From positions 3,534,001 to 3,598,000 of the forward strand of contig NZ_CP150900.1 of the NCBI RefSeq assembly GCF_038050405.1: a DNA stretch of 64,000 bases. The letters run 5' to 3'. Below the pieces are notes generated by a model, which saw nothing but the letters and a program-made list of their open reading frames with translations, had not been told where the DNA came from and ran no database searches. Numbering within the stretch: the stretch's first letter is position 1; the number at the start of each line of letters is the position of its first letter. The DNA comes from Paraburkholderia sp. IMGN_8 (GTDB lineage Bacteria > Pseudomonadota > Gammaproteobacteria > Burkholderiales > Burkholderiaceae). Of this stretch, positions 25,362 to 55,209 are shown piece after piece. The position numbers and the translations under genes are program-made.

Positions 25362-26510
25362 ATGCGCATCTATGAAAAGTACTTCGCGCGTCAGGTTTAC
25401 CTCACGTTCGTCTTTATTCTGTTCGCGTTTTCGGGCCTGTTCTTCTTCTTCGACCTGATCAACGAACTAAACTCCGTCGGCCACGGCAACTACAAGTTCC
25501 AGTACGCGGTGCTGCGCGTCGCCTTGCAGACGCCGTCGCGTTTCTACGAAATCATTCCGGTGGCTGCGCTGATCAGCGCGATCTACGTATTCGCGCAGAT
25601 GGCGGCGAACTCCGAGTACACGATTTTCCGCGTGTCGGGCCTCGCGACCAATCAGGCGCTGCGCTCGCTGCTGAAGATCGGCATTCCGCTGGTGTTCCTG
25701 ACCTACCTGATCGGCGAAGTGGTCGGTCCGTACACGGATCAGTTGTCGGAACGCGTACGGCTGGAGGCGTTGGGGTCGTCGGTATCGAGCAATTTCGAGT
25801 CGGGCGTCTGGGTGAAGGACACGCTCACCGCGCGCGCGGACGGCGAGCAGGTGACGCGTTTTGTGAACGTCGGCGAGCTGAAGCCCGACGCGACCATCAG
25901 CAACGTGCGGATTTACGAGTTCGATTCGAAGTTCCGGCTCTCGAACGTGCGGATGGCGAAAAGCGGCACGTACCAGCCGCCGGGGCATTGGCAACTGACC
26001 GGCGTGACCGATACCCAATTGTTCGACGTCCCCCCTCCTCCGGGCACCCCGACCGACGTGTTGAATCCGGTGTATCGCGCGAAGCAGGTGGAATTGCCCG
26101 AGTATTCGTTGCGCTCGGAACTGACGCCGCAGATTTTGTCTGTGCTGCTGGTGTCGCCTGACCGGATGTCGATGTTCAACCTGTTCCGTTACATCCAGCA
26201 TTTGACCGAGAATCGTCAGGACACCCAGCGGTATGAGATTGCGCTGTGGCGCAAGCTGCTGTATCCGTTTGCGGTATTCGTGATGCTGGTGTTGTCGTTG
26301 CCGTTTGCGTATTTGCATACGCGGGCCGGCGTGGTTGGTGTGAAGGTTTTCGGCGGGATTATGCTGGGGATGAGTTTTCAGCTGTTCAATACGCTGTTCT
26401 CGCATATCGGCACGTTGAATACCTGGCCGGCGCCGTTGACTGCGGCTACGCCTGGGTTGGTGTATCTGGTGCTGGGGCTGGTTGGGTTGAGGTGGGTTGA
26501 TCGCCATTAG
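25362..26510 (+). CDS. lptG: LPS export ABC transporter permease LptG
   Basis: The LptF partner. 382 residues with the same six-helix plus periplasmic-domain layout: MRIYEKYFARQVYLTFVFIL at the start and PFAYLHTRAGVVGVKVFGGI near the end. The last 250 bases shift to unusually G- and T-rich codons (GGG, TTG, GTT), unlike the first part. This shift rises toward the repeat element at 26.9 kb. Confidence 0.95.
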   Translation: MRIYEKYFARQVYLTFVFILFAFSGLFFFFDLINELNSVGHGNYKFQYAVLRVALQTPSRFYEIIPVAALISAIYVFAQMAANSEYTIFRVSGLATNQALRSLLKIGIPLVFLTYLIGEVVGPYTDQLSERVRLEALGSSVSSNFESGVWVKDTLTARADGEQVTRFVNVGELKPDATISNVRIYEFDSKFRLSNVRMAKSGTYQPPGHWQLTGVTDTQLFDVPPPPGTPTDVLNPVYRAKQVELPEYSLRSELTPQILSVLLVSPDRMSMFNLFRYIQHLTENRQDTQRYEIALWRKLLYPFAVFVMLVLSLPFAYLHTRAGVVGVKVFGGIMLGMSFQLFNTLFSHIGTLNTWPAPLTAATPGLVYLVLGLVGLRWVDRH

Positions 26511-26521
26511 GAGCCTTTGTC

Positions 26522-26890
26522 ATGGCTACGCATGGGATGGTGTTGTTCGCGCATGGCGCGAGAGATGTTCGCTGGCGCGAGCCGTTTGAGAGGTTGGCCG
26601 ATAAGGTTCGCGGTAGTGCTGCCGCTGGGCCGGTTTTGCTGGCTTTTCTCGAGTTGATGGAGCCTGATCTGCCTACAGCTGTGGGTTCTCTTGTCTCCGA
26701 CGGGTGTTCTGCTGTTACCGTCGTGCCTGTGTTTTTTGGGCAAGGTGGGCATGTTAGGGCGGATTTACCTGCGGTGATTGAGCGCTGTCGCGGGTTGTAT
26801 CCCTCCATTGAGATTAAGTGCGCCACTGCCGTTGGCGAGGATGATTCTGTTCTCGATGCGGTGGCTAGTTATTGCCTTCGGCAGGTTTGA
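26522..26890 (+). CDS. cbiX: Small CbiX-type sirohydrochlorin chelatase
   Basis: 122 residues, the size of the short single-domain CbiX (CbiXS) proteins that work as dimers. The metal-site histidines are visible in VLFAHGARD near residue 11 and in FFGQGGHVRADLP near 78. It would insert Fe (for siroheme) or Co into sirohydrochlorin. It converges with the cobA/cys genes that make sirohydrochlorin and use siroheme, so iron chelation for CysI is likely. Codon use is strongly G- and T-rich, unlike most genes here. Confidence 0.85.
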   Translation: MATHGMVLFAHGARDVRWREPFERLADKVRGSAAAGPVLLAFLELMEPDLPTAVGSLVSDGCSAVTVVPVFFGQGGHVRADLPAVIERCRGLYPSIEIKCATAVGEDDSVLDAVASYCLRQV

Positions 26891-26892
26891 GG

Positions 26893-27188
26893 TTTTTGCC
26901 TTTGGCGGCGGCATTGTCTGTGTGCCTGCGGCGGTGGCCTTTCCTTGATTTGTTATTGGTTTATTAGCGTCGCCCCTGTGCGGGGCAGGCACTTACTTTC
27001 TTTGCCGCCGCAAAGAAAGTAAGCAAAGAAAGCGGCCCAAACCGCTAATTCTTAAGCGGGTCCCCTGGCTTGGAGGAGGCAGTGGAGCATCTGGAATCGG
27101 TGTTCTCGCACACTCCGCGTGAGTGACAAGGCAGTCATACTTCCGGCGGCGCTGCGCGCGCCGTAGCGGTAGTTCAAAAAACCATCGG
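26893..27188 (+). repeat. Dispersed repeat, left arm of composite A (type I inner end)
   Basis: It begins with TTTTTGCCTTTGGCGGCGGC, runs through TTATTGGTTTATTAGCG, a CGCCCCTGTGCGGGG block, a perfect hairpin at 26992-27023 (CTTACTTTCTTTGC / GCAAAGAAAGTAAG), AAACCGCTAATTCTTAAGCG and GGAGCATCTGGAATCGGTG, and ends in the type I module (GGCGGCGCTGCGCGCGCCG). Related arms occur at 27277, 45045, 52204, 52612 and 54645. No transposase is present. Confidence 0.9.
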
Positions 27189-27276
27189 TCTTCTTCGCGC
27201 TTGCGCGTTGGCTAAGCGCGGGCATGCGGTTGCGCGACTCGCGGCTGGGTAATCGGGCGCGCCGTAACAGTACTTC

Positions 27277-27675
27277 AAAACATCACCGGTTTTTCGGCAC
27301 CTCGCCAAGGCGAAGCCGATGGCCCCCACGGCAAGAGAATTACCACTGGTTTTCCTGGCAGACCGTTCCGGCGAGCACGCAGTGCGAGGCGGGAAGAATG
27401 ACTGCCTTGTCACCAGGGCGGAATGTGCGAGAACACCGATTCCAGATGCTCCACTACCGTGACTGCGCGGGGAACCCGCTTAAGAATTAGCGGTGTGAAG
27501 CCGCTTTCTTTGCTTACTTTCTTTGCGGCGGCGCCCCGAAGGAAGTCCACTTGGTGGGCAAAGAAAGTAAGTGCCTGCCCCGCACAGGGGCGACACTAAT
27601 AAACCAATAAGAAAACAAGGAAAGGCCAACGCCGCAGGCACACAGACAATGCCGCCGCCAAAGGCAAAAAAAAAA
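27277..27675 (-). repeat. Dispersed repeat, right arm of composite A (type II inner end)
   Basis: An inverted partner of the arm at 26893. The shared part runs from about 27402 to 27675. Its inner end carries the type II module, with GAGCACGCAGTGCGAGGCGG and, further in, AAGGCGAAGCCGATGG. The hairpin region has extra bases here (GGCGCCCCGAAGGAAGTCCA), so this copy is damaged. The two outer ends make inverted termini for the whole element. Confidence 0.88.
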
Positions 27676-28440
27676 TCAAGCCGCGACTAACATCCCATCC
27701 GCGGAGCGGACAACACCCTGCTGCCGAGCAGCAAAAGCCTCCCCGATCATCAGCAAACTAGGCTGCGAATCATCAACCCACTTTTGCGCCTCTCCGCAGG
27801 CGAGTTCTTCAAGCGTGAGGGTGAGCATCCGCTCGCGATCCGTACTACACGCCTCAACAATCGCCACAGGCGTAGAAACAGCGCGCCCAGCATCGATCAA
27901 TCGCTGAGCAATCTCAACACCGCTATCGCGTCCCATATAGAACACGAGCGAATCCGCATTAACCTGCTCACGAATCTCATCGGACCCGGGAGCGCGGCTA
28001 AAAGTCGCCAGAGCAACGCTCCGCGACACGCCCCGCAGGGTAAGAGAACGCTTCAAGGATGCAGCACTAGCCAGCGCAGCCGTAATACCAGGCACGACCT
28101 CGTACTCGATGCCAGCGGCTTCAAGAGCCCGCATCTCCTCATCCGCACGCCCGAACAACATCGGATCGCCGCCCTTCAGGCGAACCACCACGTCATGCTC
28201 GAGAGCAGCATCCACAATCTGCTTGTTGATGAACTGCTGCGCCGTCGAAAGCTGTCCACACCGCTTACCAACAGCAATCCGCCGCGCATGAGACGGCGCA
28301 TAGTCGAGCATCGCGGGCTCGACCAGCGCGTCGTGCAGCACAACATCAGCGGCGCCCAACAGCCGTGCCCCACGCACCGTAATGAGGTCCGCAGCACCCG
28401 GCCCTGCGCCGATCAAATAAACCTTACCCATTTGCGTCAA
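27676..28440 (-). CDS. cobA: Uroporphyrinogen-III C-methyltransferase
   Basis: 254 residues, a single-domain SUMT (like the C-terminal part of CysG). The SAM-binding GKVYLIGAGPGAADLITVRG is at the N-terminus, with VVRLKGGDPMLFGRADEE and EVVPGITAALASAA following. It makes precorrin-2, the precursor of siroheme for CysI and of corrinoids. It ends the leftward cys series. Codon use on its coding strand turns T-rich near the repeat. Confidence 0.93.
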   Translation of the reverse strand: MTQMGKVYLIGAGPGAADLITVRGARLLGAADVVLHDALVEPAMLDYAPSHARRIAVGKRCGQLSTAQQFINKQIVDAALEHDVVVRLKGGDPMLFGRADEEMRALEAAGIEYEVVPGITAALASAASLKRSLTLRGVSRSVALATFSRAPGSDEIREQVNADSLVFYMGRDSGVEIAQRLIDAGRAVSTPVAIVEACSTDRERMLTLTLEELACGEAQKWVDDSQPSLLMIGEAFAARQQGVVRSADGMLVAA

Positions 28441-28485
28441 CCTGTTCGTTAGGGCACTTACGGTGCGCGGCTAGGCGTCGCTCGC

Positions 28486-29799
28486 TTACGCCGAAAACGC
28501 CCGAATCATGCCGGCCGCAACCGTGTGATGCGTCGCTTCGTCGATCAGCACGAATGCACCCGTGCCCTGATGCGAGTCGTACACGTCGCACACCAGCGGC
28601 TTTTGCAACGTCAACGCCACGCGGCCGATGTCGTTCATCGCCAGTTCCTTGCGATCGGTCGCCTGTGACAGCGTATGCACGTCGAGTACTTCCTTGATCG
28701 CACCGATCCGCGCAAACACCGTGTTGGTGGTCTGCTTCAACAGATACTTGCGTTGCGTCGACAGCGGCGTGTCGTCGAACCAGCACAGGTCGGCTTCCAG
28801 CTTCTTCGCCGGCTCCGGCGCCGCTTCGCTCAGCACAAACGTATCGCCGCGCGACACGTCGACGTCTTCGGCCAGACGGATCGTCACCGTTTGACCGGCA
28901 AACGCGCGGTCCACTTGCGCCGTGCCGCCCGTCACCGGCGCGATGATCTCGGCAACCGTCGCTTCGCGATTCGCCGGCAGCACGACGATCGTGTCGCCCA
29001 CCTTCACTTCGCCCGCTTCGATACGGCCCATGTAGCCGCGGAAATCGTCGGCCTGGCTGCCGTCCTGACGTGCCACCCACTGCACCGGGAAACGCAGCGC
29101 CTGGCCCGTCGGAATCTCGACCGGCAACGCTTCGAGCAAGTCCAGCAGCGGTTCGCCTGCATACCACGGCATGCTTTCGCTAGCGGTCACGATGTTGTCG
29201 CCCTTGAGCGCGGACACCGGCACGAAGCGCACGTCGTTCAGGCCCAGTTGACGCGCGAGCTCCACATACGCGTCGCGGATCTCATTGAAGCGCGCTTCGC
29301 TGTAGTCGACCAGATCCATCTTGTTGATCGCCACAATCGCGTGCTGCAAGCCGAGCAGCTTGACGATCGCGCTATGGCGCTTGGTTTGCGGCAGCAGTTG
29401 CGCGACGCCGTCGACGAAAGTCACACGCGTCGCGTCGACCAGAATGATCGCCGCATGCGCGGTCGATGCACCCGTCACCATGTTGCGCGTGTACTGCTCG
29501 TGGCCCGGCGTGTCGGCGATGATGAACTTGCGCTTGGCCGTAGCGAAGTAACGGTACGCGACGTCGATCGTGATGCCCTGTTCGCGCTCGGCCTCAAGGC
29601 CGTCAGTCAACAGCGACAGATCGATTTCGTCGCCAACGGTACGCTTATTCTTCGCGCGCGACAGTGCCGAGAGCTGATCGCTCAACACTGCCTTGCTGTC
29701 GTACAGCAGGCGGCCGATCAACGTGCTCTTGCCGTCGTCGACGCTGCCCGCAGTAATGAATCGCAGCACGCCGAGGTCTTCTGGTTGATGAATATTCAT
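28486..29799 (-). CDS. cysN: Sulfate adenylyltransferase subunit 1 (GTPase)
   Basis: 437 residues, the EF-Tu-like GTPase that drives APS formation by CysD. GTPase motifs: GSVDDGKSTLIGRLLYD, DTPGHEQYTRNMV and NKMDLVD. There is no fused APS kinase domain (CysC) at the C-terminus, which fits reduction at the APS level by the adjacent cysH. It is separated from cysD by a 200-base spacer filled with palindromes. Confidence 0.96.
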   Translation of the reverse strand: MNIHQPEDLGVLRFITAGSVDDGKSTLIGRLLYDSKAVLSDQLSALSRAKNKRTVGDEIDLSLLTDGLEAEREQGITIDVAYRYFATAKRKFIIADTPGHEQYTRNMVTGASTAHAAIILVDATRVTFVDGVAQLLPQTKRHSAIVKLLGLQHAIVAINKMDLVDYSEARFNEIRDAYVELARQLGLNDVRFVPVSALKGDNIVTASESMPWYAGEPLLDLLEALPVEIPTGQALRFPVQWVARQDGSQADDFRGYMGRIEAGEVKVGDTIVVLPANREATVAEIIAPVTGGTAQVDRAFAGQTVTIRLAEDVDVSRGDTFVLSEAAPEPAKKLEADLCWFDDTPLSTQRKYLLKQTTNTVFARIGAIKEVLDVHTLSQATDRKELAMNDIGRVALTLQKPLVCDVYDSHQGTGAFVLIDEATHHTVAAGMIRAFSA

Positions 29800-29818
29800 G
29801 ATGTTCCTTGTCCGTCTG

Positions 29819-29990
29819 TCGACCTGAGTTAGCGCTTCAGCGCTTACTCAGGTCCCATGCAAAGCTGTCGATCGGAGTTAGCGTGTCGACCAGAGTTGGT
29901 GCTTTAGCGCCTACTCTGGTCCCATAGCGCTTACTCCGATCCCATGCAAAGCTGTCGACCTGAGTTAGCGCTTCAGCGCTTACTCAGGTC
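29819..29990. repeat. Nested palindromic repeats between cysD and cysN
   Basis: Hairpin 1 (29821-29854) and hairpin 3 (29957-29990) are identical 34-mers with 16-base perfect arms beginning GACCTGAGTTAGCGCT. Hairpin 2 (29870-29941) has outer arms GATCGGAGTTAGCG / CGCTTACTCCGATC, and its loop contains a whole further unit (29888-29921) with arms GACCAGAGTTGGTGCT / AGCGCCTACTCTGGTC. Units are linked by CCATGCAAAGCTGTC. The three arm types differ at paired positions, so pairing is kept. It looks like a REP/BIME-type element and lies inside the cysD-cysN transcript. Confidence 0.92.
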
Positions 29991-29996
29991 CCATGC

Positions 29997-30959
29997 TTAG
30001 AAGTAACCTTGCTTCTTACGCTGTTCCATCGCGGCTTCGGAGACCTGATCGTCCATCCGCGTCGCGCCGCGTTCCGTGATTTCGGTCACGGCCGTTTCGG
30101 CGATGATCTTCTCGAGATCGTCGGCGTCGCTTTCCACCGGGCACGTGCAGCTGATGTCGCCCACGGTGCGGAAACGCACCAGCGCGGTTTCGCTGGTCTC
30201 GCCTTCACGCATCGGGGTGAGCGGCGTGACCGGCACCAACAGGCCGTTGCGGCGCACGATCTCGCGTTGATGCGCGTAATAGATCGACGGCAGTTCGAGC
30301 TGTTCGCGGGCGATGTACTGCCACACGTCGAGTTCGGTCCAGTTCGAGATGGGGAACACGCGCAGGTGTTCGCCGTTGTGCAGACGCGCGTTATACAGGC
30401 TCCACAGTTCCGGGCGCTGCGCCTTCGGATCCCATTGGCCGAATTCGTCGCGGAACGAGAAGATCCGTTCTTTCGCACGGGCCTTTTCTTCGTCGCGGCG
30501 CGCACCGCCGATCAGCGCGGTGTATTCATGTTCAGCGATCGTTTCGAGCAGCGTGACGGCCTGCGCGGCGTTGCGCGAATCCATTTCGCGACGCAGACGC
30601 ACCGTGCCGCGCTTGATCGAATCTTCAACGTGACCCACCACCAGTTCAGCGCCGATTTCTTTCGCGCGACGATCGCGGAAGTCGATCACTTCGTCGTAGT
30701 TGTGGCCGGTGTCGATATGCACGAGCGGGAACGGCAGCACGGTCTTGCGGTTCGCGCCGAGGCCGAATGCCTTCAGTGCGAGGTGCAACACCACAACCGA
30801 ATCCTTGCCGCCCGAAAACAGCAGCGCGGGCTTGCTGCATTCGGCGACCAATTCGCGCAGGATGTGAATCGACTCGGCTTCGAGCCAGTCGAGGTGATCC
30901 ATCCGGTTCGCCGTGTTGGCAAGCGGAGCGTTGAGAGTGGAATCGAGCGTGGTGCTCAT
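29997..30959 (-). CDS. cysD: Sulfate adenylyltransferase subunit 2
   Basis: 320 residues, the PP-loop catalytic subunit of ATP sulfurylase: ALLFSGGKDSVVVLHLALKAF (first part) holds the PP-motif, with FPLVHIDTGHNYDEVIDFRD and IGGARRDEEKARAKER. It makes APS from sulfate and ATP together with CysN. It follows cysH by 112 bases. The stop is seven bases from the nearest palindrome, which may shape the cysD/cysN ratio. Confidence 0.96.
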   Translation of the reverse strand: MSTTLDSTLNAPLANTANRMDHLDWLEAESIHILRELVAECSKPALLFSGGKDSVVVLHLALKAFGLGANRKTVLPFPLVHIDTGHNYDEVIDFRDRRAKEIGAELVVGHVEDSIKRGTVRLRREMDSRNAAQAVTLLETIAEHEYTALIGGARRDEEKARAKERIFSFRDEFGQWDPKAQRPELWSLYNARLHNGEHLRVFPISNWTELDVWQYIAREQLELPSIYYAHQREIVRRNGLLVPVTPLTPMREGETSETALVRFRTVGDISCTCPVESDADDLEKIIAETAVTEITERGATRMDDQVSEAAMEQRKKQGYF

Positions 30960-31071
30960 GTTTGGGTCCTTCGTTGGTTCGCCCGGCGGGCGGTTGCTCG
31001 CCGAGCGGAAGTATTCAAATCGGTATGTGCGGCGTTCAGATCAAAAGCCAGGACCTGAATACCCAAATGCG

Positions 31072-31827
31072 TCAGGCCGAAGCGTTTTCGCTGCTGCTGA
31101 AAGGGATCGGCGTAATCGTCGTGATGTGCAGCCCGCATTCCTTCGTATCGCGCGACTCCCACCACCAGCGCCCTGCCCGGCTGTCTTCACCGGGACGGAT
31201 CGCTCGCGTACAGGGTTCGCAACCGATGCTCGGATAACCGCGTGCATGCAGCGGATTGACCGGCACGTCGAAGGCGTTGAGGTAGTCCCACACTTCGGTC
31301 TCGGTCCAGTCCGTCAGCGGATTGAACTTGGCGATGTTGCGCGCGGCGTCGTGCTCTTCCTCGTGCAATTCAGCACGCGTCACCGACTGCTCGCGGCGTT
31401 GGCCCGTCACCCATGCGCTGACATCCGACAGCGCGCGGTTCAGCGGCTCGACCTTGCGGATTTCGCAGCAGCGCTTTCGCAAATCGACGCTTTCGTAAAA
31501 CGCGTTCAGACCGTGCGACCCAACATATTCTTCAACCGCAGCAGCTTGCGGATGAAACTGTTCGATCTCGTAGCCATAGCGCTCTTTCACGCGATCGAGC
31601 ATGCCGAGCGTTTCCGCATGCAGACGGCCCGTATTCAGCGAGAAGATGCCGATCTTTACGCCACGCGAGAGAATCGCGTGGGTAAGCAGCATGTCTTCCG
31701 CCGCGAGGCTGCTGGCGAGCTTCACGTTCGCGTGACGCGCGGCGATCGAATCGAGCAGCGCATCGAGGCGCTCGATCTTCGCAGCGAGTTCCGGCGTGAG
31801 CGATTGTGCGTCGTGTGCGTCGCTCAT
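31072..31827 (-). CDS. cysH: Assimilatory adenylylsulfate (APS) reductase
   Basis: 251 residues of the CysH family. The four cysteines that hold a [4Fe-4S] cluster in APS-reducing members are present, C120-C121 (KRCCEIRKVEPL) and C203-x2-C206 (IGCEPCTRAI), with the catalytic C231 in KECGLH. So it should reduce APS directly to sulfite, with no need for APS kinase. The start overlaps the stop of the DUF934 gene by four bases. Confidence 0.93.
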   Translation of the reverse strand: MSDAHDAQSLTPELAAKIERLDALLDSIAARHANVKLASSLAAEDMLLTHAILSRGVKIGIFSLNTGRLHAETLGMLDRVKERYGYEIEQFHPQAAAVEEYVGSHGLNAFYESVDLRKRCCEIRKVEPLNRALSDVSAWVTGQRREQSVTRAELHEEEHDAARNIAKFNPLTDWTETEVWDYLNAFDVPVNPLHARGYPSIGCEPCTRAIRPGEDSRAGRWWWESRDTKECGLHITTITPIPFSSSENASA

Positions 31828-32366
31828 ACTGAGGCCTTTTCCAAAGCCGCAGCCGCGCGGCGGCGGAACAGCGGCGAAGGATTGTCGACCGCGCCCTGAT
31901 ACTGCACGCTGAATTCGTCGAATGCCTTGAGCGCGTCGTTGAAGTCTTTGTCTTCACGCAGCGCGTAAGCGTCAAAACCGCAGCGGAACATGAACGTCAG
32001 CTGATCGCGCAGCACGTCGCCGATCGCACGCAGTTCGCCCTTGTAGCCATAACGCTCGCGCAACAGGCGGCCGATGCTATAACCACGGCCGTCGCGGAAC
32101 ACCGGGAAGTCCACGCCGATCAGCGCGATCTTGTCGAAGTCGCCGACGATATCCGCCGGTTCGCTGTCCGGCGCGAGCCACACGCCGATCTCAGCCGCGC
32201 TGCGCGAAGCGATCAACGCATCGCGCGCAGCCTGCCACAACGCGAGCGGCACCAGCACCTTGCCGGCCGGCAATGTATCCACTGCGGGCAAGCTGCCGTC
32301 TTCCGCTGCGCGCACTACCGTCCAGTCATCGTTGACGATCGCGCGATTCTTGATGATAGAAGCCAT
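31824..32366 (-). CDS. DUF934 family protein of sulfite reduction clusters
   Basis: 180 residues with the DUF934 pattern: VPLALWQAARDALIASRSAAEIGVWL (parts quoted) and the FPVFRDGRGYSIGRLLRERYGY block, then ELRAIGDVLRDQLTFMFRCGFDAY. It regularly lies between cysI and cysH in beta- and alpha-proteobacteria. Its reaction is not established; as no CysJ flavoprotein is encoded here, a role in electron delivery to CysI is a reasonable guess. It is tightly spaced with both neighbours. Confidence 0.9.
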   Translation of the reverse strand: MASIIKNRAIVNDDWTVVRAAEDGSLPAVDTLPAGKVLVPLALWQAARDALIASRSAAEIGVWLAPDSEPADIVGDFDKIALIGVDFPVFRDGRGYSIGRLLRERYGYKGELRAIGDVLRDQLTFMFRCGFDAYALREDKDFNDALKAFDEFSVQYQGAVDNPSPLFRRRAAAALEKASV

Positions 32367-32389
32367 CTGTTCAGTATCCTTTTTCGCGG

Positions 32390-34069: not shown

Positions 34070-34289
34070 TCGGGGACCCCAATTTTTTTGCGTGACACAC
34101 AGCGTTCCGGCTACGCCGCGCCCTGGATATCTCCATTTGTCAGCTCAGACGAGTCAGGGTTTAGACCTATCTCTCATTTGCTTATGACAAATACAGATAT
34201 CCATATTGAAAAAGATGGACAGATCGTAATAAACTCGCCTTATATTTCAAACGACTAAAAAATTCTTTTTATATGCGGAGAGGTTATAT
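34070..34289. promoter_or_regulatory. AT-rich divergent cysI-cysB control region
   Basis: A 220-base spacer with marked A+T-richness from 34150 to 34285. ATTTG at 34176-34180 and CAAAT at 34188-34192 form a small dyad around CTTATGA, upstream of cysI. CysB sites are long and weakly conserved, so this region is the likely place, but I cannot map them. GGAGAGG serves the cysB start. Confidence 0.55.
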
Positions 34290-35231: not shown

Positions 35232-35264
35232 CAGCACCACGCTTCCCGCTACGGAGACCATTCA

Positions 35265-36425: not shown

Positions 36426-36540
36426 GTGAGTCGAAAAGCACGCCCGCAACCCGACGAAACCGTTCGGGCGGCGAGCAGCGCGGGCCGCTTCCGAAGTTGT
36501 TACAGTAGAACTCTTTCCCCCGACCCAGCAGTCCCACATC

Positions 36541-43777: not shown

Positions 43778-43980
43778 GGACGATGCGAGCGGGAATCGCA
43801 AGGACAGATCGGTAGGGATTAACACGGAGTCGGCAAGCCGGCGCACTGCCCGCGACAGCGCGGGATCGTGCCGCGGTTTGGTACAATTCCACAGTTACCC
43901 TGCCGTGGCCCGGCTCCAGATGGACACCGCTCGCCACTCGTCAGTGGCACAAATCGCCAAACCAAACCGCCGAACCCACC

Positions 43981-44634: not shown

Positions 44635-44692
44635 GTAACCTGCAACCTGAAGTGTCGCTGGTCCGCCGCAATCTGAACTGGATGTCTTGCTG

Positions 44693-45016: not shown

Positions 45017-45044
45017 CTTCTGACGCGGCGCTATTTGGTTGTTT

Positions 45045-45315
45045 GCCTACGGCGTTGCCTTTCCTTGCTTTCTTATTGGTTTATTAGCGTTCCCCCTGTG
45101 CGGGGGGCACCTACTTTTCTTTGCCGGCCGCAAAGAAAAGTAGGCAAAAGAAAGCGGCTCAAACCGCCAATTCTTAAGCGGGTCCCCTGGCTTGGAGGAG
45201 GCAGTGGAGCATCTGGAATCGGTGCTCTCGCACACTCCGCGCTTGTGACAAGGCAGTCATTCTTCCGGCGGCGCTGCGCGCGCCGCTGCGGTACTTCACA
45301 AAACCGCCGGCCAGT
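45045..45315 (+). repeat. Dispersed repeat, single arm B (type I)
   Basis: It runs from TTGCCTACGGCGTTGCCTTT through TTATTGGTTTATTAGCG, a hairpin at 45110-45144 with arms CCTACTTTTCTTTGC / GCAAAGAAAAGTAGG, the CGCCAATTCTTAAGCG and GGAGCATCTGGAATCGGTG blocks, to the type I module. The hairpin arms differ from copy A on both sides together. There is no inverted partner arm. The frame of 107 residues across it is not a convincing gene. Confidence 0.9.
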
Positions 45316-45460
45316 TTTGATGCCCGCGTTTCGCCTGGTACGGGCAATGTTTCTTTAAATAGATATCCCTGATGGCCTCGCTCGCCCCCGCCAGTTCGGA
45401 TCGTCCTGCCTCGCTTGCGAACAATGCAGGATGCAAACACCCTTCCGCAGATGTCGCCCC
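45316..45460. other. Spacer between repeat B and the aminotransferase gene
   Basis: About 145 bases with no gene, hairpin or promoter that I can support. The + strand turns rich in A and C toward the aminotransferase end. Confidence 0.3.
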
Positions 45461-46792: not shown

Positions 46793-47142
46793 GTCGGGTC
46801 TCCTCGCGTGGGTGGTCTTCCAGTGTAGGCAGAGCGCGACGCATGCACAAAGGGGCGGCGCACATGCACCGCGCTCGCCCGCTGGCGGATCGGCACGCTT
46901 CGTTGCAGCGCCACACGCACCGCAACGAGGCGAACAGGCCACGTGTGCACCACTTTCGCGCCGCATTACGCATAACACCGATGCCCGGCCACCGCGCCGC
47001 AGCACGCAAGACGCGGAGTTCTCGCCGGATGCATCGCTTGGCATGTGCCTTGCAGTACACAAGCGGCAAGTCAAGCGGGACAAGCCCTGCTGGCTGAAAT
47101 CGACGCCCATAAACGTTCACCATCAATGGCAAGGGGATATAC
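46793..47142. other. Divergent spacer between aminotransferase and urtA
   Basis: 350 bases without a gene. Besides the sigma-54 promoter at 47039-47054 it holds TGCACC half sites at 46865-46870 and 46946-46951 that resemble NtrC half sites, though no complete TGCACC-N5-GGTGCA dyad is present. Confidence 0.55.
47039..47054 (+). promoter_or_regulatory. Sigma-54 promoter of urtA
   Basis: TGGCATG-TGCC-TTGCA matches the -24/-12 consensus TGGCAYR-N4-TTGCW at every position. The GG and GC pairs are 12 bases apart as required. Start of transcription would fall near 47066, some 77 bases before the urtA ATG. Nitrogen control through NtrC is the expected route for a urea importer. Confidence 0.85.
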
Positions 47143-48441: not shown

Positions 48442-48528
48442 CGGGACGACGCAGCGATACGACGGCGCGGCCATCCGTGTTTATCCACGATGCCGCGCCG
48501 CCCTGCCGGCTCTTCTTCAAAGGCCACC

Positions 48529-50154
48529 ATGGCGTTTTCATTCCTGACGTTCGCACGGCGCAGCATCGGCAGCCTGGGGCTCGCGCTCCTGGCTAGCGCG
48601 CCGCTTGCCGCTTTCGCGCTGAGTCCGGCCGACGTCGCGCCGCTCGCCGGCGACGACTTCGACGCGAAATCCGCGGCCATCGACAAACTGATCGCCAATC
48701 ACGACAAAGCATCGCTCGCGGTGCTCAAAGCCCTGTCCGACGACAGTGCGCTCGCCACCGATGCCGGCGCCGTACTGCTGCAGGACGGCGACACCGCGCG
48801 CGATGCCGTCACCGGCAAGACCGTCGCCGCGGGCGATGCTCAACCGGTCACACTGAACAACCTGCTGCGCTCGAAGGTGACAGGCGCGCTGTCGGGCCTG
48901 CAACTCGACTCGCCCGATACGGCTACGCGCGCCGCCGCAATCACCGCGCTGTTGCAAAACCCCGATCCGTCGATCAAACCGCTGGTCGACGCCGCTCGCG
49001 CGAAAGAAACCGACCCAGCGCTGAAGAAGCGTCTGGACACGCTGTGGGCGATGACCGCCTTGCACGACGCCGATCCGGCCAAGCGGCTCGAAGCCGTGCA
49101 ACTGGTCGCCGCGAGGCACGATCTCGACATGAACGAGCTGCTGCGCCCGCTCGTCGCGAAGAAGCCGGACGGCACCTTCAACGAAACCGACGACCGCGTC
49201 CGCGCCGCCGCGCAAAGCGGCATCGACGAACTCGATGCGATCCAGCGCCGCAGCCAGATCGCCGGCACGCTGTTCGCCGGCTTGTCGCTCGGCAGCGTGC
49301 TGCTGCTCGCCGCGCTCGGCCTCGCGATTACATATGGGCTGATCGGCGTCATCAACATGGCGCACGGCGAATTCCTGATGATCGGCGCGTACGCCACCTA
49401 CGTCGTGCAGAACCTGTTCCAGCGGTACGCGCCCGGTGCGTTCGACTGGTATCCGCTGCTCGCGGTGCCCGCGTCGTTCGTGGCCGCCGGATTAGTCGGC
49501 ATCGTGCTCGAACGGCTGGTTCTGAAGCACCTGTACGGCCGTCCGCTCGAAACGCTGCTGACCACCTTCGGTATCAGCCTGATTCTGATTCAGGCCACGC
49601 GCATGCTGTTCGGCGCGCAAAACGTGCAGGTGATCAATCCGGCGTGGATGAGCGGCGGCGTGACCGTGCTGCCGAATCTGATCTTGCCGTACAACCGCCT
49701 GGCGATTCTGGCGTTTTCGATGATCGTCGTCGGCATTGCGTGGGCCGTGCTGACCAGGACGCGCCTCGGTCTCTTCGTGCGCGCCGTCACGCAGAATCGG
49801 CGGATGGCGGCGTGCGTCGGCGTGAAGACGGCGCGGGTCGATTCGTATGCGTTCGCGTTCGGCGCGGGCATTGCCGGTTTGGGCGGCTGTGCGCTGTCGC
49901 AAATCGGCAATGTCGGCCCGGACCTCGGCCAGAGCTACATCATCGATTCGTTCATGGCGGTGGTGCTCGGCGGCGTCGGCCAACTGGCCGGCACCGTGAT
50001 CGGCGGCTTCGGGCTCGGCCTCGTCAGCAAAGCGATCGAACCGTTCTGGGGCGCGGTGCTCGCGAAGATCGCGGTGCTCGTGCTGATCGTGCTGTTCATC
50101 CAGAAGCGTCCGCAGGGCATGTTCGCCCTCAAGGGCCGTAGCGCGGAGGCATGA
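48529..50154 (+). CDS. urtB: Urea ABC transporter permease UrtB
   Basis: 541 residues. A signal-like hydrophobic start, then about 230 periplasmic residues with HEAT-like helical pairs (LDSPDTATRAAAITALLQNP, DDRVRAAAQSGIDELDAI), then a LivH-type permease of about 290 residues (GLIGVINMAHGEFLMIGAYA). The long extension is normal for UrtB. I start at ATG 48529; ATG 48490 adds 13 unlikely residues. Its stop overlaps urtC as ATGA. Confidence 0.95.
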   Translation: MAFSFLTFARRSIGSLGLALLASAPLAAFALSPADVAPLAGDDFDAKSAAIDKLIANHDKASLAVLKALSDDSALATDAGAVLLQDGDTARDAVTGKTVAAGDAQPVTLNNLLRSKVTGALSGLQLDSPDTATRAAAITALLQNPDPSIKPLVDAARAKETDPALKKRLDTLWAMTALHDADPAKRLEAVQLVAARHDLDMNELLRPLVAKKPDGTFNETDDRVRAAAQSGIDELDAIQRRSQIAGTLFAGLSLGSVLLLAALGLAITYGLIGVINMAHGEFLMIGAYATYVVQNLFQRYAPGAFDWYPLLAVPASFVAAGLVGIVLERLVLKHLYGRPLETLLTTFGISLILIQATRMLFGAQNVQVINPAWMSGGVTVLPNLILPYNRLAILAFSMIVVGIAWAVLTRTRLGLFVRAVTQNRRMAACVGVKTARVDSYAFAFGAGIAGLGGCALSQIGNVGPDLGQSYIIDSFMAVVLGGVGQLAGTVIGGFGLGLVSKAIEPFWGAVLAKIAVLVLIVLFIQKRPQGMFALKGRSAEA

Positions 50155-51338
50155 TGACGTCTGCGACTACACCGGCTCACGTTTCATCAGCGGGCTCGGC
50201 CGCGAGCTCCGGCCGCGAGGCGCAATCCGGCTTCGCGCTCGGCTTGCCGCCGCGTCCCGCGCTGCTGTCTCGGCGCGCATGGCTCGCGCTGATCGCGCTG
50301 ATTATCGTGTTCGGCTTCGGCGTGCCGTTCGCCACGCTAGTAGTACCGGAGACGAGCGCGTTCCATCTGTCCGCGTACGCGATGACGCTGACCGGCAAGT
50401 TCATGTGCTACGCGATCGCCGCGCTCGCGCTCGATCTCGTGTGGGGTTACTGCGGCATTCTGAGCCTCGGGCACGCATTGTTCTTTGCATTGGGCGGGTA
50501 CGCGATCGGCATGTACCTGATGCGCGCGATCGGTCACGAAGGCAAATACGGCAGCGATCTGCCGGACTTCATGGTGTTTCTCGACTGGCATCAACTACCG
50601 TGGTACTGGCAAGGCACCCAGCATCTCGGTTATGCGCTGCTGCTGGTGGTGCTGGTGCCGGCGGTGGTCGCGTGGGTGTTCGGCTTCTTCACGTTCCGCT
50701 CGCGCGTGAAGGGCGTGTACCTGTCGATCATCACGCAGGCGATGACCTTCGCCGCGATGCTGCTGTTCTATCGCAACGAAACGGGTTTCGGCGGCAACAA
50801 CGGCTTCACCGACTTCAAGCGCATCGGCGGTTTTCCGATCACGCATCCGGGCACGCGCACTGCCCTCTTGCTGATCACATTTGCCGTGTTGATTCTCGCG
50901 TTTATCGGCGCACGGGCGATCGTCGCGTCGAAGCTCGGCCGCGTGGTCACTGCGGTACGCGACGGCGAAACGCGCCTGATGTTCCTCGGCTACAGCCCGT
51001 TGGCGTACAAACTGTTCGTGTGGACCGTGTCCGCCGTGTTGTGCGGGATTGCTGGTGCTTTGTATGTGCCGCAGGTCGGCATTATCAATCCGGGCGAGAT
51101 GTCGCCGGGCAACTCGATTGAAATGGCGATCTGGGTCGCCGTGGGCGGACGTGGCACTTTGATCGGACCGATCGTCGGCGCGTTCGCGGTGAATGGCGCG
51201 AAGAGCTTTTTTACGGCGAACTTCCCTGAGTATTGGCTGTTCTTTCTTGGCTTGATCTTCGTGCTGGTGCCGTTGCTGTTGCCGAACGGCATCATGGGGC
51301 TGATCGAACTCGTGACGCGCAAGAGGAACCGCTCATGA
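50151..51338 (+). CDS. urtC: Urea ABC transporter permease UrtC
   Basis: 395 residues of the LivM type with about ten helices: LDLVWGYCGILSLGHALFFA, YRNETGFGGNNGFTDFK and EMSPGNSIEMAIWVAVGGRG. A variable, Ala/Ser-rich cytosolic stretch of about 40 residues precedes the first helix. Overlaps urtB and urtD by four bases each. Confidence 0.95.
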   Translation: MMTSATTPAHVSSAGSAASSGREAQSGFALGLPPRPALLSRRAWLALIALIIVFGFGVPFATLVVPETSAFHLSAYAMTLTGKFMCYAIAALALDLVWGYCGILSLGHALFFALGGYAIGMYLMRAIGHEGKYGSDLPDFMVFLDWHQLPWYWQGTQHLGYALLLVVLVPAVVAWVFGFFTFRSRVKGVYLSIITQAMTFAAMLLFYRNETGFGGNNGFTDFKRIGGFPITHPGTRTALLLITFAVLILAFIGARAIVASKLGRVVTAVRDGETRLMFLGYSPLAYKLFVWTVSAVLCGIAGALYVPQVGIINPGEMSPGNSIEMAIWVAVGGRGTLIGPIVGAFAVNGAKSFFTANFPEYWLFFLGLIFVLVPLLLPNGIMGLIELVTRKRNRS

Positions 51339-52198
51339 ACGAAAACCCGATGGTTCCTGATCTTGCCTTGCCTGAAGCACCGGCTGAACGGTCGTTGAGC
51401 GGCGTCGCCAGCATGGGGCACGCGGTGGTGCCGGGCGAGATCGACATTTCGCACGGGACGATTCTGTACCTTGAAGATGTGACCGTCAGTTTTGATGGTT
51501 TTCGCGCGCTGAATGGGCTGACGTTGTCGATCGATGCGGGTGAATTGCGTTGCATTATCGGGCCTAACGGCGCGGGCAAGACGACGATGATGGATGTCAT
51601 CACCGGGAAGACGGAGCCGGATTCCGGCAAGGTTTTTCTGGGGCAGTCGATTGATTTGACGCGGATGAATGAGCCTTCTATTGCACGTGCCGGGATTGGG
51701 CGGAAGTTTCAGAAGCCTACTGTTTTTGAGCAACATCCTGTTTGGGAGAACCTTGAGTTGGCTATGAAGGCTGACAAGGGGTGGTGGGGTTCTTTACGCG
51801 CCCGGTTGGATCGCGAGGCGCAGGCTCGCATTGAAGAGACTTTGGCTTTGATTGGGCTTGAGAGTGAGGCTCGACGGCTTGCTGGCGAGTTGTCGCATGG
51901 GCAGAAGCAGCGGCTCGAGATTGGGATGTTGCTTATGCAGCAACCGGCGCTTCTTTTGCTCGATGAGCCTGCGGCCGGGATGACCGATGATGAGACTATG
52001 CAGTTGGCTGATTTGCTCAATCAATTGCGGGGGACTTGCTCGATGATGGTTGTGGAGCACGATATGGAGTTTGTTGCTGCTCTGTCTGGTGACACTGGGC
52101 GGGTCACCGTGATGGCTGAAGGGCGGGTTCTTGCTCATGGCACTCTTGATGATGTTAAGAAGGATGAGATGGTTATTGAGTCTTATCTAGGGAGGTGA
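51335..52198 (+). CDS. urtD: Urea ABC transporter ATP-binding protein UrtD
   Basis: 287 residues, LivG-like ABC ATPase: Walker A GPNGAGKTTMMDVI, signature LSHGQKQRLEIGMLL, Walker B LLLLDEPAAGMTDDE. The N-terminal 45 residues before the ABC domain are longer than usual. From about 51640 on, codon use becomes strikingly G- and T-rich (GAG, TTG, GGG, GTT), peaking at the repeat element just after the stop. Confidence 0.95.
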   Translation: MNENPMVPDLALPEAPAERSLSGVASMGHAVVPGEIDISHGTILYLEDVTVSFDGFRALNGLTLSIDAGELRCIIGPNGAGKTTMMDVITGKTEPDSGKVFLGQSIDLTRMNEPSIARAGIGRKFQKPTVFEQHPVWENLELAMKADKGWWGSLRARLDREAQARIEETLALIGLESEARRLAGELSHGQKQRLEIGMLLMQQPALLLLDEPAAGMTDDETMQLADLLNQLRGTCSMMVVEHDMEFVAALSGDTGRVTVMAEGRVLAHGTLDDVKKDEMVIESYLGR

Positions 52199-52203
52199 TT
52201 TGG

Positions 52204-52600
52204 TTTTTTTTGCCTTTGGCGGCGGCATTGGTTGTGTGCCTACGGCGTTGCCTTTCCTTGCTTTGATATTGGTTTATTAGCGTTCCCCCTGTGCGGGGGG
52301 GCACCTACTTTTCTTTGCCGCCGCAAAGAAAAGTAGGCAAAAGAAAGCGGCTCAAACCGCTAATTCTTAAGCGGGTCCCCTGGCTTGGAGGAGGTAGTGG
52401 AGCATCTGGAATCGGTGTTCTCGCGCACTCCGCGCTTGTGACAAGGCAGTCATCCTTCCCGCCTCGCACTATGTGCTCGCCGGAACGGTCTGCCTGGGAA
52501 ACCAGTGGTTTTGTTCTTTTGCTGTGGGAGCCATCGGCTTCGCCTCGGCGAGGCGCTGAAATTGGCCGGTGGTTTTGGAAGTGCGCTGAACGCATGAAAC
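52204..52600 (+). repeat. Dispersed repeat, left arm of composite C (type II inner end)
   Basis: Begins six bases after the urtD stop. It carries the TGCCTTTGGCGGCGGCATTG terminus, the TTATTAGCG block, a hairpin near 52308-52341 (CCTACTTTTCTTTGC / GCAAAGAAAAGTAGG), CCGCTAATTCTTAAGCGG and, after GACAAGGCAGTCAT, the type II module (CGCCTCGCACTATGTGCTCG and GGCTTCGCCTCGGCGAGGC). The module matches the inverted arm at 27277-27675. Confidence 0.9.
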
Positions 52601-52611
52601 GGCTAGCGGTT

Positions 52612-52900
52612 TTATGAAGTACCGCTGCGGCGCGCGTAGCGCCGCCGGAAGTATGACTGCCTTGTCACCGAGGCTGAATGTGCGAGAACACCGATTCCAG
52701 ATGCTCCACTACCTCCTCCAAGCCAGGGGACCCGCTTAAGAATTAGCGGTTTGAGCCGCTTTCTTTGCTTACTTTCTTTGCGGCGGCAAAGAAAGTAAGT
52801 GCCTGCCCCGCACAGGGGCGACGCTAATAGACCAATAACAAAACAAGGAAAGGCAACGCCGTAGGCACACAACCAATGCCGCCGCCAAAGGCAAAAAAAA
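52612..52900 (-). repeat. Dispersed repeat, right arm of composite C (type I inner end)
   Basis: The inverted partner of 52204. Its inner end is the type I module (GGCGGCGCTACGCGCGCCG on the minus strand). The hairpin here is of the CTTACTTTCTTTGC sort, unlike its own left arm. It ends at 52900, 36 bases before the urtE ATG, in a run of A. The composite thus sits inside the urt operon. Confidence 0.9.
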
Positions 52901-52935
52901 AGCAAAACCACACCAGAATCAGAGGAACGATCCAA

Positions 52936-53628
52936 ATGTTAGAAGTAGCAAACCTGAACCAATACTACGGCGGCAGCCACATCCTCCGAGATGTGAAACT
53001 AACCGTGCCGGACGGCAAGCTAACCGTCCTATTGGGCCGCAACGGCGTAGGCAAAACCACGCTGCTCAGATGCCTGATGGGCGTAGTCCAAACCAGGAGC
53101 GGTTCAATCGCCTGGCGTGGCACGCCAATCACAAAACTCCCAACTTACTCGAGAGTAGAACAAGGCCTGGCCTACGTCCCACAAGGCCGTGACATCTTCC
53201 CCCGACTGACAGTCGAAGAAAACCTGTTGGTAGGCGCCGCCAGCAAAAAAGCCCCCAAAAAAATCCCCGACCGCATCTACGACCTCTTCCCAGTACTAAA
53301 AGACATGCGCACCCGCCGCGGCGGCGACCTCTCCGGCGGACAGCAGCAACAACTCGCCATCGGCCGAGCCCTCATGAGCGATCCGCAATTGCTCATCCTC
53401 GATGAACCCACCGAAGGTATCCAGCCATCGATCATCCAGGACATCGGCCGCACACTGCGTCAACTGGTCGAAGAAATGGGCATGACCGTCCTGCTCGTCG
53501 AACAGTATTACGATTTCGCCAAGGAAATCGCCGATCGGTATTGGGTCATGAGCCGCGGTGAAATCGTCGCGGGCGGCGAAGGCGCTAACATGGACACGGA
53601 TGGCGTACGCGCACTCATCGCCGTCTGA
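52936..53628 (+). CDS. urtE: Urea ABC transporter ATP-binding protein UrtE
   Basis: 230 residues, LivF-like: Walker A GRNGVGKTTLLRCLMG, signature LSGGQQQQLAIGRALM, Walker B LLILDEPTEGIQPSI. I use the ATG at 52936 (MLEVANLNQYYGG), the usual family start. The first 350 bases are rich in A and C on the coding strand (codons ending CCA, GTA, CTA, AAA), the mirror image of the end of urtD, and fade to normal later. Confidence 0.95.
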   Translation: MLEVANLNQYYGGSHILRDVKLTVPDGKLTVLLGRNGVGKTTLLRCLMGVVQTRSGSIAWRGTPITKLPTYSRVEQGLAYVPQGRDIFPRLTVEENLLVGAASKKAPKKIPDRIYDLFPVLKDMRTRRGGDLSGGQQQQLAIGRALMSDPQLLILDEPTEGIQPSIIQDIGRTLRQLVEEMGMTVLLVEQYYDFAKEIADRYWVMSRGEIVAGGEGANMDTDGVRALIAV

Positions 53629-53733
53629 CAAAGACGCCCACCGCAGCGTGATATTCTCGCCGCATCACTACGGCAATGCGTCGACCGTTGCCTAACGCGC
53701 GCCGGCACGCTCGGCCTCTATACGTCCATTCGC

Positions 53734-54627
53734 ATGTCGCTTCACGAAAATCACGTCACGCTCGCCACCGCGCACGCCGCGGCGCAAAAGACCGCGCACT
53801 CGCAATGGCGCGCTCGTCTCGAACTCGGCTTCGTCAAAAACGGCGAGCGGACCACGCTCGCTCACCGGCGGCATGATGGGCCGTTGCGCGTGCAGCGGCC
53901 ACTCTACCCGGAAGGCGATGCGATCTGTCATGCGGTGATCGTGCATCCGCCAGGCGGGATCGCGGGCGGCGATCAGCTCGATATCGATGTCGCGCTTGGC
54001 GACGGCGCGCATGCCGTCATTACTACGCCTGGGGCGACCAAGTGGTACAAGTCCAATGGACGCGCGGCGCGGCAGACTATCGATGTGCGAGTCGGCGCCC
54101 ACGCCCGGCTCGATTGGCTGCCGCAGAACAATATCGTGTTCGATAGTGCGAACGCTCAGCTTGAATTCACGCTGACACTTGCTGAAGGCGCTACCGTGAT
54201 TGGGTGGGATGCTACGCAGTTGGGGCGGCAAGCTGCCGGTGAACGGTGGTCGAATGGGCAGTTGCGCGCGGTTTCGCGGATCGTTGGAGCTAATGGCGAG
54301 TTGTTGTGGCTCGAACGCGCGAGTCTTACCGCGGATGATCCGCTAAGGGATGCTGCGCATGGGCTTGCCGGGTTTCCCGCGTATGGGATGTTGTGGGCCG
54401 TCGGGCCTGCTTGCGATGATGCGCTTGCTGAAGGGCTTACTGCCCAGTTGCCGTTTGATGATGCGCTGCGGGCGGCGGCTTCTTGTGTCACTTCTGGGGT
54501 TTTGATTGTGCGGGCTGTTTCTCGGTCTATGGAAATGCTACAGCGCGCGTTGACTCAGTGCTGGTTGCAGTTGCGGCCCGTCGTGCATGGGGTCGATGCT
54601 GTGCCGCTTCGGATTTGGTCTACTTGA
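53734..54627 (+). CDS. ureD: Urease accessory protein UreD (UreH)
   Basis: 297 residues. UreD binds apo-urease and with UreF and UreG forms the nickel-loading complex. Family blocks: [49 protein letters not shown] and [15 protein letters not shown]. Its last 400 bases become G- and T-rich toward repeat D. It starts 105 bases after urtE and may still be in the urt transcript. Confidence 0.94.
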
Positions 54628-54644
54628 TCTGCGTTTGTCGGTGT

Positions 54645-54912
54645 GCCTACGGCGTTGGCCTTTCCTTGATTTGTTATTGGTTTATTAGCGTTGCCCCTGT
54701 GCGGGGCGGCACCTACTTTTCTTTGCCAGCCGCAAAGAAAAGTAGGCAAAAGAAAGCGGCTAGAACCGCTAATGCTAAGCGGGTCCCTCGCACAGCCACG
54801 GTAGTGGAGCATCTGGAATCAGTGTTCTCGCACACTCCGCGCTGGTGACAAGGCGGTCATACTTCCGGCGGCGCTGCGCGCGCCGTAGCGGTACTTCTCA
54901 AAACCAATGGGG
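54645..54912 (+). repeat. Dispersed repeat, single arm D (type I)
   Basis: From GTGCCTACGGCGTTGGCCTT to the type I module and GTACTTCTCAAAACC. The hairpin at about 54711-54745 is CCTACTTTTCTTTGC / GCAAAGAAAAGTAGG. The middle is altered (CGCTAATGCTAAGCGGGT), with a deletion compared with other arms. Beyond it, at 54928-54950, GTCATTCTTCCCGCCTCGG resembles the start of the type II module, so this may be the remains of a composite. Confidence 0.88.
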
Positions 54913-55209
54913 CGTACGCGCTTCCCCCGTCATTCTTCCCGCCTCGGCGAGACGCAGACGTATGCACGCGGTGTCCACCACGCCAAACCAAATGCCCGCT
55001 CTAAAACCACTCGCAGTCTTTCACCGTCGTAAGCCCGCTCGCGCACCACGCAGAGGCATAAAAATGCTCAATTTCGGTGCATCGCCTCGCTGTCCTCACC
55101 GCTCTCCCCCGTTGCACCGGCATGGCACACACCTTGCTCGACAACCTCCCACGATGCTGCCGCGTCCTGACGGCAGCCGACCGCTCGTCGCCACCACCGC
55201 TCAATCAAT
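54913..55209. other. Spacer between repeat D and the binding-protein gene
   Basis: About 300 bases without a gene. It is A- and C-rich on the + strand near the repeat. It holds the sigma-54 promoter at 55123-55138 and possible NtrC half sites GGTGCA (55076-55081) and TGCACC (55113-55118). Confidence 0.55.
55123..55138 (+). promoter_or_regulatory. Sigma-54 promoter before the amino-acid binding protein and ure genes
   Basis: TGGCACA-CACC-TTGCT fits the -24/-12 consensus with the correct spacing. Transcription would start near 55150, 60 bases before the ATG at 55210, and could run on into ureABC. It is the second sigma-54 site in this nitrogen region. Confidence 0.82.

Follow-up and report, generated by a model that had tools for sequence, protein, structure and literature searches.

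In yeast, breakage of long inverted repeats is accompanied by mutations in reporters on either side, at distances of up to 8 kb, and since repair rebuilds the inverted repeats they continue to act as a long-term source of mutation; the increase comes about through breaks, resection and Pol zeta (PMC3681665). At human meiotic hotspots, the forward strand is reported to show C>N and A>N changes to the left of the break and the complementary changes to its right, within ~2 kb, and resected single-stranded DNA and translesion synthesis have been proposed (PMC7615360). An interrupted palindrome in the Escherichia coli chromosome yields SbcCD breaks that can be repaired by homologous recombination (PMC4245961, PMC3315005). 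Here we describe a family of palindromic elements in Paraburkholderia sp. IMGN_8 whose flanks carry a two-sided, strand-specific change of base composition. The genome has 9,114,050 bases in two contigs, C1 and C2; the starting point is a stretch of 64,000 nucleotides, hereafter the window (C1:3534001-3598000), which holds two composite elements and two lone half-elements (Table 1). A first-pass annotation of the window had claimed that the strand whose 3' end points into these repeats is rich in G+T on both sides. This observation is confirmed, and the effect is much larger than was stated there.

The repeats form a family of ~0.8 kb inverted-repeat pairs, a single arm measuring ~283 bp. The core, TGGAGCATCTGGAATC, has 239 matches in the genome with at most 2 mismatches (124 forward and 115 reverse), of which 100 places were listed; usually a + arm is followed by a - arm, the cores lying about 300-530 bp apart. 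Sixty stretches were fetched around copies, covering about half of them, and because these are mainly the listed C1 places, with six stretches from C2, the latter contig is under-sampled. Together with the window they contain 73 clusters, namely 58 pairs with both orientations (mostly + then -), 9 lone + arms and 6 lone - arms. The consensus of 43 simple pairs, ~850 columns long, consists of two conserved arms flanking a variable spacer. The one copy that was folded, element 2 (52204-52900, 697 nt), pairs end to end as single-stranded DNA at -339.1 kcal/mol (z -32.5), against about -121 kcal/mol for its shuffles, 0 of 20 of which fold as well. REPINs (PMC3116915) are likewise described as hairpin-forming inverted doublets with a spacer, dispersed between genes, and are built from REP units of 20-40 bp (PMC3733652); the inverted doublet is shared (58 of 73 clusters here), whereas the arms of the present family are about 280 bp long. 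Scoring up to three candidates in each genome, we found relatives of the arm in 82 of 200 sampled genomes of the bacterial family, spread over 10 of 25 genera. Across 58 genomes of the genus, the hairpin-core pattern (at most 3 mismatches) has from 0 to 302 matches, low counts being noise because a reversed-pattern control reaches 14.

When the strand whose 3' end points into the element is counted over the 58 pairs, G+T on the left flank is 0.713 at 0-50 bp, 0.628 at 100-200 bp, 0.571 at 400-600 bp, 0.524 at 800-1000 bp and 0.50-0.51 beyond 1.3 kb; the corresponding values on the right are 0.725, 0.610, 0.558, 0.532 and 0.50-0.51. The excess decays with a constant of 489 +/- 39 bp and reaches baseline beyond 1.3 kb. 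GC falls from 0.63-0.64 to 0.51-0.53. The first 100 bp are enriched in words from the element ends and may hold element-derived sequence, so the footprint claim rests on the DNA beyond 150 bp. There, mean G+T is 0.582 at 150-600 bp as against 0.504 at 2.0-3.9 kb, and the near value exceeds the far one in 101 of the 112 flanks (out of 116) long enough for the comparison (Wilcoxon p 8.6e-19). Single flanks at 150-600 bp are not always exceptional (56 of 112 lie above the 95% limit of control windows, 12 of 112 above the 99% limit), but the aggregate is decisive: over the sampled copies the mean skew changes by a large amount. A blind scan of 0.83 Mb for G+T-rich DNA on the left and A+C-rich DNA on the right placed 108 of 120 peaks at elements, in stretches pre-chosen around elements and with two gap sizes, so that one place may count twice. 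The other 12 peaks gave chance-level blastn matches to the element (best E 0.081), and of the six that were searched for inverted repeats one (L073) has one. If the sampled copies are typical, about 120 loci of 2.4 kb, or about 3% of the genome, would be affected.

The 60-base blocks on which the first-pass annotation was built were reproduced exactly (G+T of 44, 41, 40 and 39; A+C of 37, 38, 42 and 39). Taken singly they prove little, because similar blocks occur remote from repeats, e.g. at 3061 and 7381; blocks of the window have a mean G+T of 29.3 (standard deviation 4.7), and 35 of 1066 reach at least 39. The effect is also missing to the left of repeat B, as had been noted, and B proves to be a lone half-element.

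The footprint is symmetric. Among 56 pairs with sufficiently long flanks, 48 exceed 0.53 on both sides, four on the left only and four on the right only, and none on neither side. In the two halves of C1, where far GC skew is opposite (+0.021 and -0.023), left and right flanks are equal (0.606/0.603 in one half, n=26, Wilcoxon p 0.42; 0.615/0.606 in the other, n=23, p 0.40), and the left-minus-right difference does not follow local far GC skew (rho -0.01, p 0.91). Stalled forks, or lagging-strand gaps at the hairpin, would expose one template strand; fork stalling was one of two mechanisms offered by the first-pass annotation, and the interrupted palindrome of E. coli is a case in its favour (PMC4245961). 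A mechanism that is fork- or lagging-strand-polar should act only on the near side of the fork, and since the flanks are equal in both C1 halves we regard it as quite improbable. If the hairpin depends on replication and gives rise to a two-ended break, it is compatible with the explanation that we favour below.

Coding direction does not explain the skew, as the first-pass annotation had already argued, for it is the same whichever way the flanking gene reads. Transcription could act in another way, by exposing one strand through outward transcripts or R-loops from the element, or through the transcription of genes. Within the window, six arms match Rfam RF02421 (Bp1_684, a Burkholderia small RNA candidate) over their outer part, in every case outward and below threshold (31.9-41.4 bits, threshold 44), and outward reading would suit this idea. 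This RNA model covers part of one arm, not the composite or its footprint. Moreover, the strand displaced by an outward transcript is the opposite of the one that gains T, and genes reading toward and away from the element show the same effect on the physical strand; we hold a transcriptional origin to be very improbable.

In genes that read toward the element, four-fold degenerate sites lose C (0.398 to 0.165) and gain T (0.078 to 0.337), while A (0.052 to 0.062) and G (0.472 to 0.436) hardly change. Where genes read away, the same physical strand loses C (0.463 to 0.194) and gains T (0.053 to 0.187) and G (0.411 to 0.515) at such sites, of which the nearest bin has only 134. These gene sets are approximate, as they come from a home-made caller, which missed urtD. 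In intergenic DNA, the change is from C to T and, in addition, from A to G. An avoidance of GpC sites was considered and rejected: it is mostly due to Gly and Arg codons and is absent in AGY and TGY codons and in intergenic DNA.

Comparison with relatives links the skew to the element. The closest named urtE loci are from Paraburkholderia (98% protein identity), and at the urtD/urtE junction 80 related loci plus the window gave 81 rows, four of them unscorable and one (L110) scored in part. All 13 loci with the element are skewed, with G+T of 0.56-0.65 in the last 400 bp of urtD and A+C of 0.57-0.615 in the first 400 bp of urtE. Only three of the 64 loci lacking it are skewed (L092, L093 and L121), urtD in the others being at most 0.53. 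L092 retains an outer end of the element and reads as a left end joined to a right end; L121 has a short hairpin at the junction, which may be another remnant; L093 has no recognisable end left and lies within the carrier clade. In the soil strain P. xenovorans LB400 (L101), arm matches lie on the downstream side of urtE. Taking as ancestral the base found in at least 70% of 23 non-carrier loci of the Paraburkholderia group, we counted third-position changes in urtD within 0-250 bp of the left edge, at 27 C, 27 G, 3 A and 1 T sites; the count leaves out three Caballeronia carriers, and since carriers share history it does not represent independent events. All changes together amount to 0.507 in 10 carriers and 0.119 in the 23 non-carriers. 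C>T is about nine times as frequent in carriers (0.500 vs 0.058); the values are 0.207 vs 0.047 for C>G, 0.70 vs 0.17 for A>G, 0.185 vs 0.016 for G>T and 0.026 vs 0.006 for C>A, and G>A is unchanged (0.033 vs 0.045). Beside urtE the increase is more modest (0.311 vs 0.117 at 60-250 bp and 0.418 vs 0.147 at 250-500 bp).

Two other junctions behave alike in carriers. SUMT, the right gene of element 1, was compared over 30 loci, and in all 13 with at least a partial arm the last 400 bp have G+T of 0.613-0.657. Against a reference of the eight unskewed non-carriers only, the 13 carriers show C>T of 0.428 vs 0.092, G>A of 0.038 vs 0.091 and total change of 0.513 vs 0.172. The 30 purM/miaA loci comprise five carriers (G+T 0.600-0.655), L213 with a remnant (0.627) and 24 others, L218 being without a visible element; the five carriers exceed 15 unskewed loci in C>T (0.300 vs 0.073), C>G (0.142 vs 0.043) and total change (0.348 vs 0.150) but not in G>A (0.050 vs 0.059). 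The strand-specific excess of C-to-T changes that the first-pass annotation had proposed to look for is found beside urtD, SUMT and purM/miaA. C>T, C>G and A>G are raised in carriers at all three junctions, A>G from few sites, and G>A at none, and third-position substitution is up about 2.3 to 4.3 fold. The dependence on the element is clean at one junction and has exceptions at the other two. Selection on composition beside the element, e.g. for Rho use or RNA structure, or insertion into pre-skewed sites might produce such an association, and the skewed loci without a detectable element at those two junctions would favour pre-existing skew if they were not scars. Against this, the change is greatest at four-fold sites and between genes, substitution is accelerated in carriers, and 61 of 64 element-free urtD/urtE loci are unskewed, so that we give these ideas a very slight chance. 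The tests made of coding direction, of fork direction and of insertion at pre-skewed sites leave all three disfavoured.

The footprint extends beyond the genus. Sixteen genomes from three further genera of the family contributed 20 stretches, whose pooled values are 0.634/0.635 at 0-100 bp, falling to 0.509/0.499 at 1.5-2.5 kb. These stretches represent about 12 distinct sites, given that L180-L186 are one orthologous site and that there is similar overlap between L171 and L174 and between L187 and L188; two of the stretches, L173 and L179, are weak cases, and L187 does not form a + - pair.

We propose, with a probability of roughly 0.58, that recurrent two-ended breaks at the palindrome are followed by 5' resection and by damage to the exposed 3' tails. 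Folded as a hairpin or cruciform, the palindromic element would be open to cutting, making it a chronic site of two-ended breaks; resection would proceed some few hundred bases from the 5' ends; C>T, C>G, A>G and G>T would accumulate on the 3' tails thus exposed; and repair from the sister template would then restore the element. The combination of C>T with C>G may reflect uracil and its abasic product, and 8-oxo-deoxyguanosine (8-oxo-dG) is a possible source of G>T; 8-oxo-dG and Pol IV are among the factors described in break mutagenesis of E. coli (PMC5542668). After loss of the element, the footprint would persist for a time as a scar, as a few loci suggest. A two-ended break with resection would account for the affected strand, the symmetry, the decay, the independence of gene and fork direction and the raised rate. 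In the 58 pairs, the affected strand is, on both sides, the one that a central break followed by 5'-to-3' resection would leave in place. Resected 3' tails were the other mechanism put forward by the first-pass annotation, and it is this proposal, rather than fork stalling, that fits the strand, the symmetry, the decay and the types of substitution. Cutting, resection, damage to single-stranded DNA, repair and the identity of the nuclease are what we infer from the footprint.

The described systems differ from the present one in several respects. The yeast fragile sites were reporter constructs followed over laboratory time and depended on Pol zeta and Sae2 (PMC3681665), whereas here a natural bacterial family carries an accumulated scar in base composition of ~1 kb, around a putative break. 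Similarly, the E. coli palindromes are test palindromes; the hairpin-forming inverted repeat is common to both. As at meiotic hotspots, an excess of C>N and A>N on one strand is accompanied by its complement on the opposite side, and flanks of about 1-2 kb are affected on both sides. The meiotic breaks are programmed by SPO11, and C>G, A>G and C>A are reported to peak off-centre, at 700-800 bp (PMC7615360); here the effect is strongest at the element, and G>T and, near SUMT, G>C are raised too.

Errors of the nascent strand could also be envisaged, with low-fidelity synthesis toward the element from both sides putting G and T for C and A, either during fill-in after 3' loss or when an outward RNA is copied by reverse transcription. 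On one strand, the four classes with the greatest rise all end in G or T, the outer halves of the arms bear the outward, sub-threshold RF02421 matches mentioned above, and the genome has one strong and three weak matches to the IMS domain of Y-family polymerases. Such errors would require a special 3'-loss pathway on both sides, and we think them unlikely. Template damage and insertion errors leave the same trace and are inseparable by sequence alone.

Several observations weigh against recurrent breakage with damaged 3' tails, although neither outcome that the first-pass annotation had named as a refutation came about: the mean skew change over the sampled copies is large, and 61 of 64 repeat-less urtD/urtE loci are free of the bias. 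At the two other junctions, some loci lacking the element do show it (8 of 24 and 9 of 17). Of the 17 SUMT loci without an arm, eight are at 0.557 or less and nine at 0.585 or more. Three of the latter (L226, L229 and, weakly, L253) have no element, yet their far side is A+C-rich too, and this mirror skew makes them look like scars of lost elements; L238 and L241 are cut by contig ends, and L230, L232, L233 and L235 are unproven as scars. Eight of the 24 other purM/miaA loci are at 0.578 or more, and seven of these eight have a short hairpin that resembles the outer end of the element and could be an old terminator. Their C>T is 0.167 vs 0.073, but their total is 0.139 vs 0.150, and because the total rate is not raised they are likewise unproven. 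The skewed non-carriers appear to be scars of lost elements, with proof in few cases. At urtD/urtE, a quick tree of the distal region requires at least six changes of element state. Four independent pairs are supported there, of which two agree, none is opposed and two are ties that disappear when scars are omitted; independent pairs are few, and this locus alone cannot reach significance by a pair test. More independence comes from the separate insertions within one genome.

The spectrum and the lone arms raise further difficulties. G>T is raised on the same strand, which cytosine deamination alone does not explain, and G>C is raised near SUMT (0.107 vs 0.029). In intergenic DNA the shift from C to T is 2.7 where the preceding base is T and about 1.8 for the other three, a context preference too weak to indicate a deaminase. 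The 14 lone arms whose flanks were long enough have a mean of 0.577 on the outer side and 0.530 on the inner side, with 11 of 14 outer and 4 of 14 inner sides above 0.56 (p 0.04), a polarity that breakage of a two-armed hairpin does not predict. Lone arms may derive from pairs that were split or damaged; alternatively, a single half may be active by itself and with polarity. At C1:1225383/1248285 and 1368790/1403832, lone + and lone - arms stand 23 kb and 35 kb apart in + then - order and look like composites split by islands; their outer sides are skewed (0.595-0.642), and the inner sides are at 0.475, 0.568, 0.477 and 0.517.

The machinery is a further point. Canonical SbcD does not exceed the cut-off in this genome (best match 49 bits, partial, cut-off 77.65; the SbcC family was not searched), and therefore the textbook hairpin nuclease was not found here; it exceeds the cut-off in 6 of 58 genomes of the Paraburkholderia group, among them the one with most pattern matches (G232). 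A metallophosphoesterase and an SMC-like ATPase, encoded together at C2:1818490-1822349 (L192:3899-7758), resemble Mre11/Rad50 as a divergent pair. PADLOC gave partial matches at the ATPase ends for the Rad50-like protein and none for its partner. RecB is present in the genome, and the tracts processed by RecBCD in E. coli are much longer than 0.5 kb. The RecB, Y-family polymerase and Mre11/Rad50-like genes are at most candidates for a role at the elements. A localised mutation hotspot around breaks in E. coli has reportedly been described by the Rosenberg laboratory.

Nine inserts of the size of insertion sequences (four kinds, 1.24-1.53 kb) lie within arms, several at the same arm position (L039, L040, L046, L049, L051, L060, L071 and L077). 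The recurrent ones are 100% identical to each other and therefore recent, and all nine have G+T of 0.48-0.54. That recent inserts are unskewed implies that the skew needs time, and it seems to be acquired slowly.

Other candidates were examined. Near the elements, Chi-like sites number 15 toward and 5 away, and far from them 31 and 35, the Chi of this genus not being established; both orientations exceed the order-2 expectation near and far, and a Chi link was rejected since the near asymmetry equals the maximal-order Markov expectation (14.7 and 5.1). A diversity-generating retroelement was set aside too, given that its adenine-specific change of one repeat is not seen, cytosine dominating and both flanks being hit (no search for a reverse transcriptase was made). 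For a linked transposase of the RAYT type, the genome has a single Y1_Tnp match, whose 3.3 kb locus gave only chance-level matches to the element. This Y1 transposase-like gene (L255:1459-2166, 235 aa) has no flanking element and is possibly domesticated; the open reading frame downstream is presumably GltB-like. Within the window, tandem palindromic units (CTGTCGACCTGAGTTAGCGCTTCAGCGCTTACTCAGGTC..., repeat families D5 and D6) at 29790-30019, upstream of a GTP_EFTU-domain gene (28486-29799), have no evident kinship to the element.

Table 1. Elements, footprints and RNA-family matches in the window (positions within the 64,000 nucleotides).
Feature	Position	Strand	Parts and genes	Basis and values
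Composite element 1	26893..27670		+ arm 26893-27175, - arm 27362-27670, spacer between	blastn of arm; repeat finding (I6, I11)
Composite element 2	52207..52897		between urtD and urtE; + arm 52207-52489, - arm 52616-52897	blastn of arm; folding
Lone half-element (repeat B)	45025..45297	+		blastn; skew on right side only (left 0.483, right 0.570)
Lone half-element	54635..54897	+	after ureD	blastn; both sides skewed (left 0.612, right 0.582)
Left footprint, element 1	25700..26892	+	3' end of LptF/LptG-type gene; CbiX gene 26522-26890	top-strand G+T 0.670 over 600 bp; outer limit approximate
Right footprint, element 1	27671..28870	-	TP_methylase gene 27676-28440, minus strand	bottom-strand G+T 0.615 over 600 bp; outer limit approximate
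Left footprint, element 2	51000..52206	+	urtD	top-strand G+T 0.632 over 600 bp; third-position excess of C>T, C>G, A>G, G>T; outer limit approximate
Right footprint, element 2	52898..53733	-	start of urtE	bottom-strand G+T 0.617 over 600 bp; merges into left footprint of next half-element
RF02421 matches, sub-threshold	26896-27002, 27561-27651, 45025-45120, 52217-52314, 52789-52887, 54617-54722	outward from arm

Parallels to this footprint are known in yeast and in human meiosis. A search of the open-access literature, which does not cover subscription papers, found no report on the footprint of this repeat or on such a footprint in bacteria. It is conceivable, though rather doubtful, that the family is a bacterial counterpart of recombination hotspots, in which mobile palindromes would keep ~3% of the genome (given typical sampled copies) permanently broken and hypermutating, break repair would keep the repeats alike, and G/T enrichment would make oriented Chi-like sites that tune where resection ends. 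If recurrent breakage is the cause, base composition would record where the chromosome recurrently opens, how far resection extends and on which strand, at perhaps 120 places per genome and in several genera, and the frequency of breaks at natural palindromes, resection length and the fate of lesions in single-stranded DNA would become directly testable in bacteria. At third codon positions, genes next to such repeats change with about two to four times the usual speed, and they do so in one direction. Screens based on codon usage, on the ratio of non-synonymous to synonymous substitution (dN/dS) or on signs of horizontal transfer could therefore misread them.

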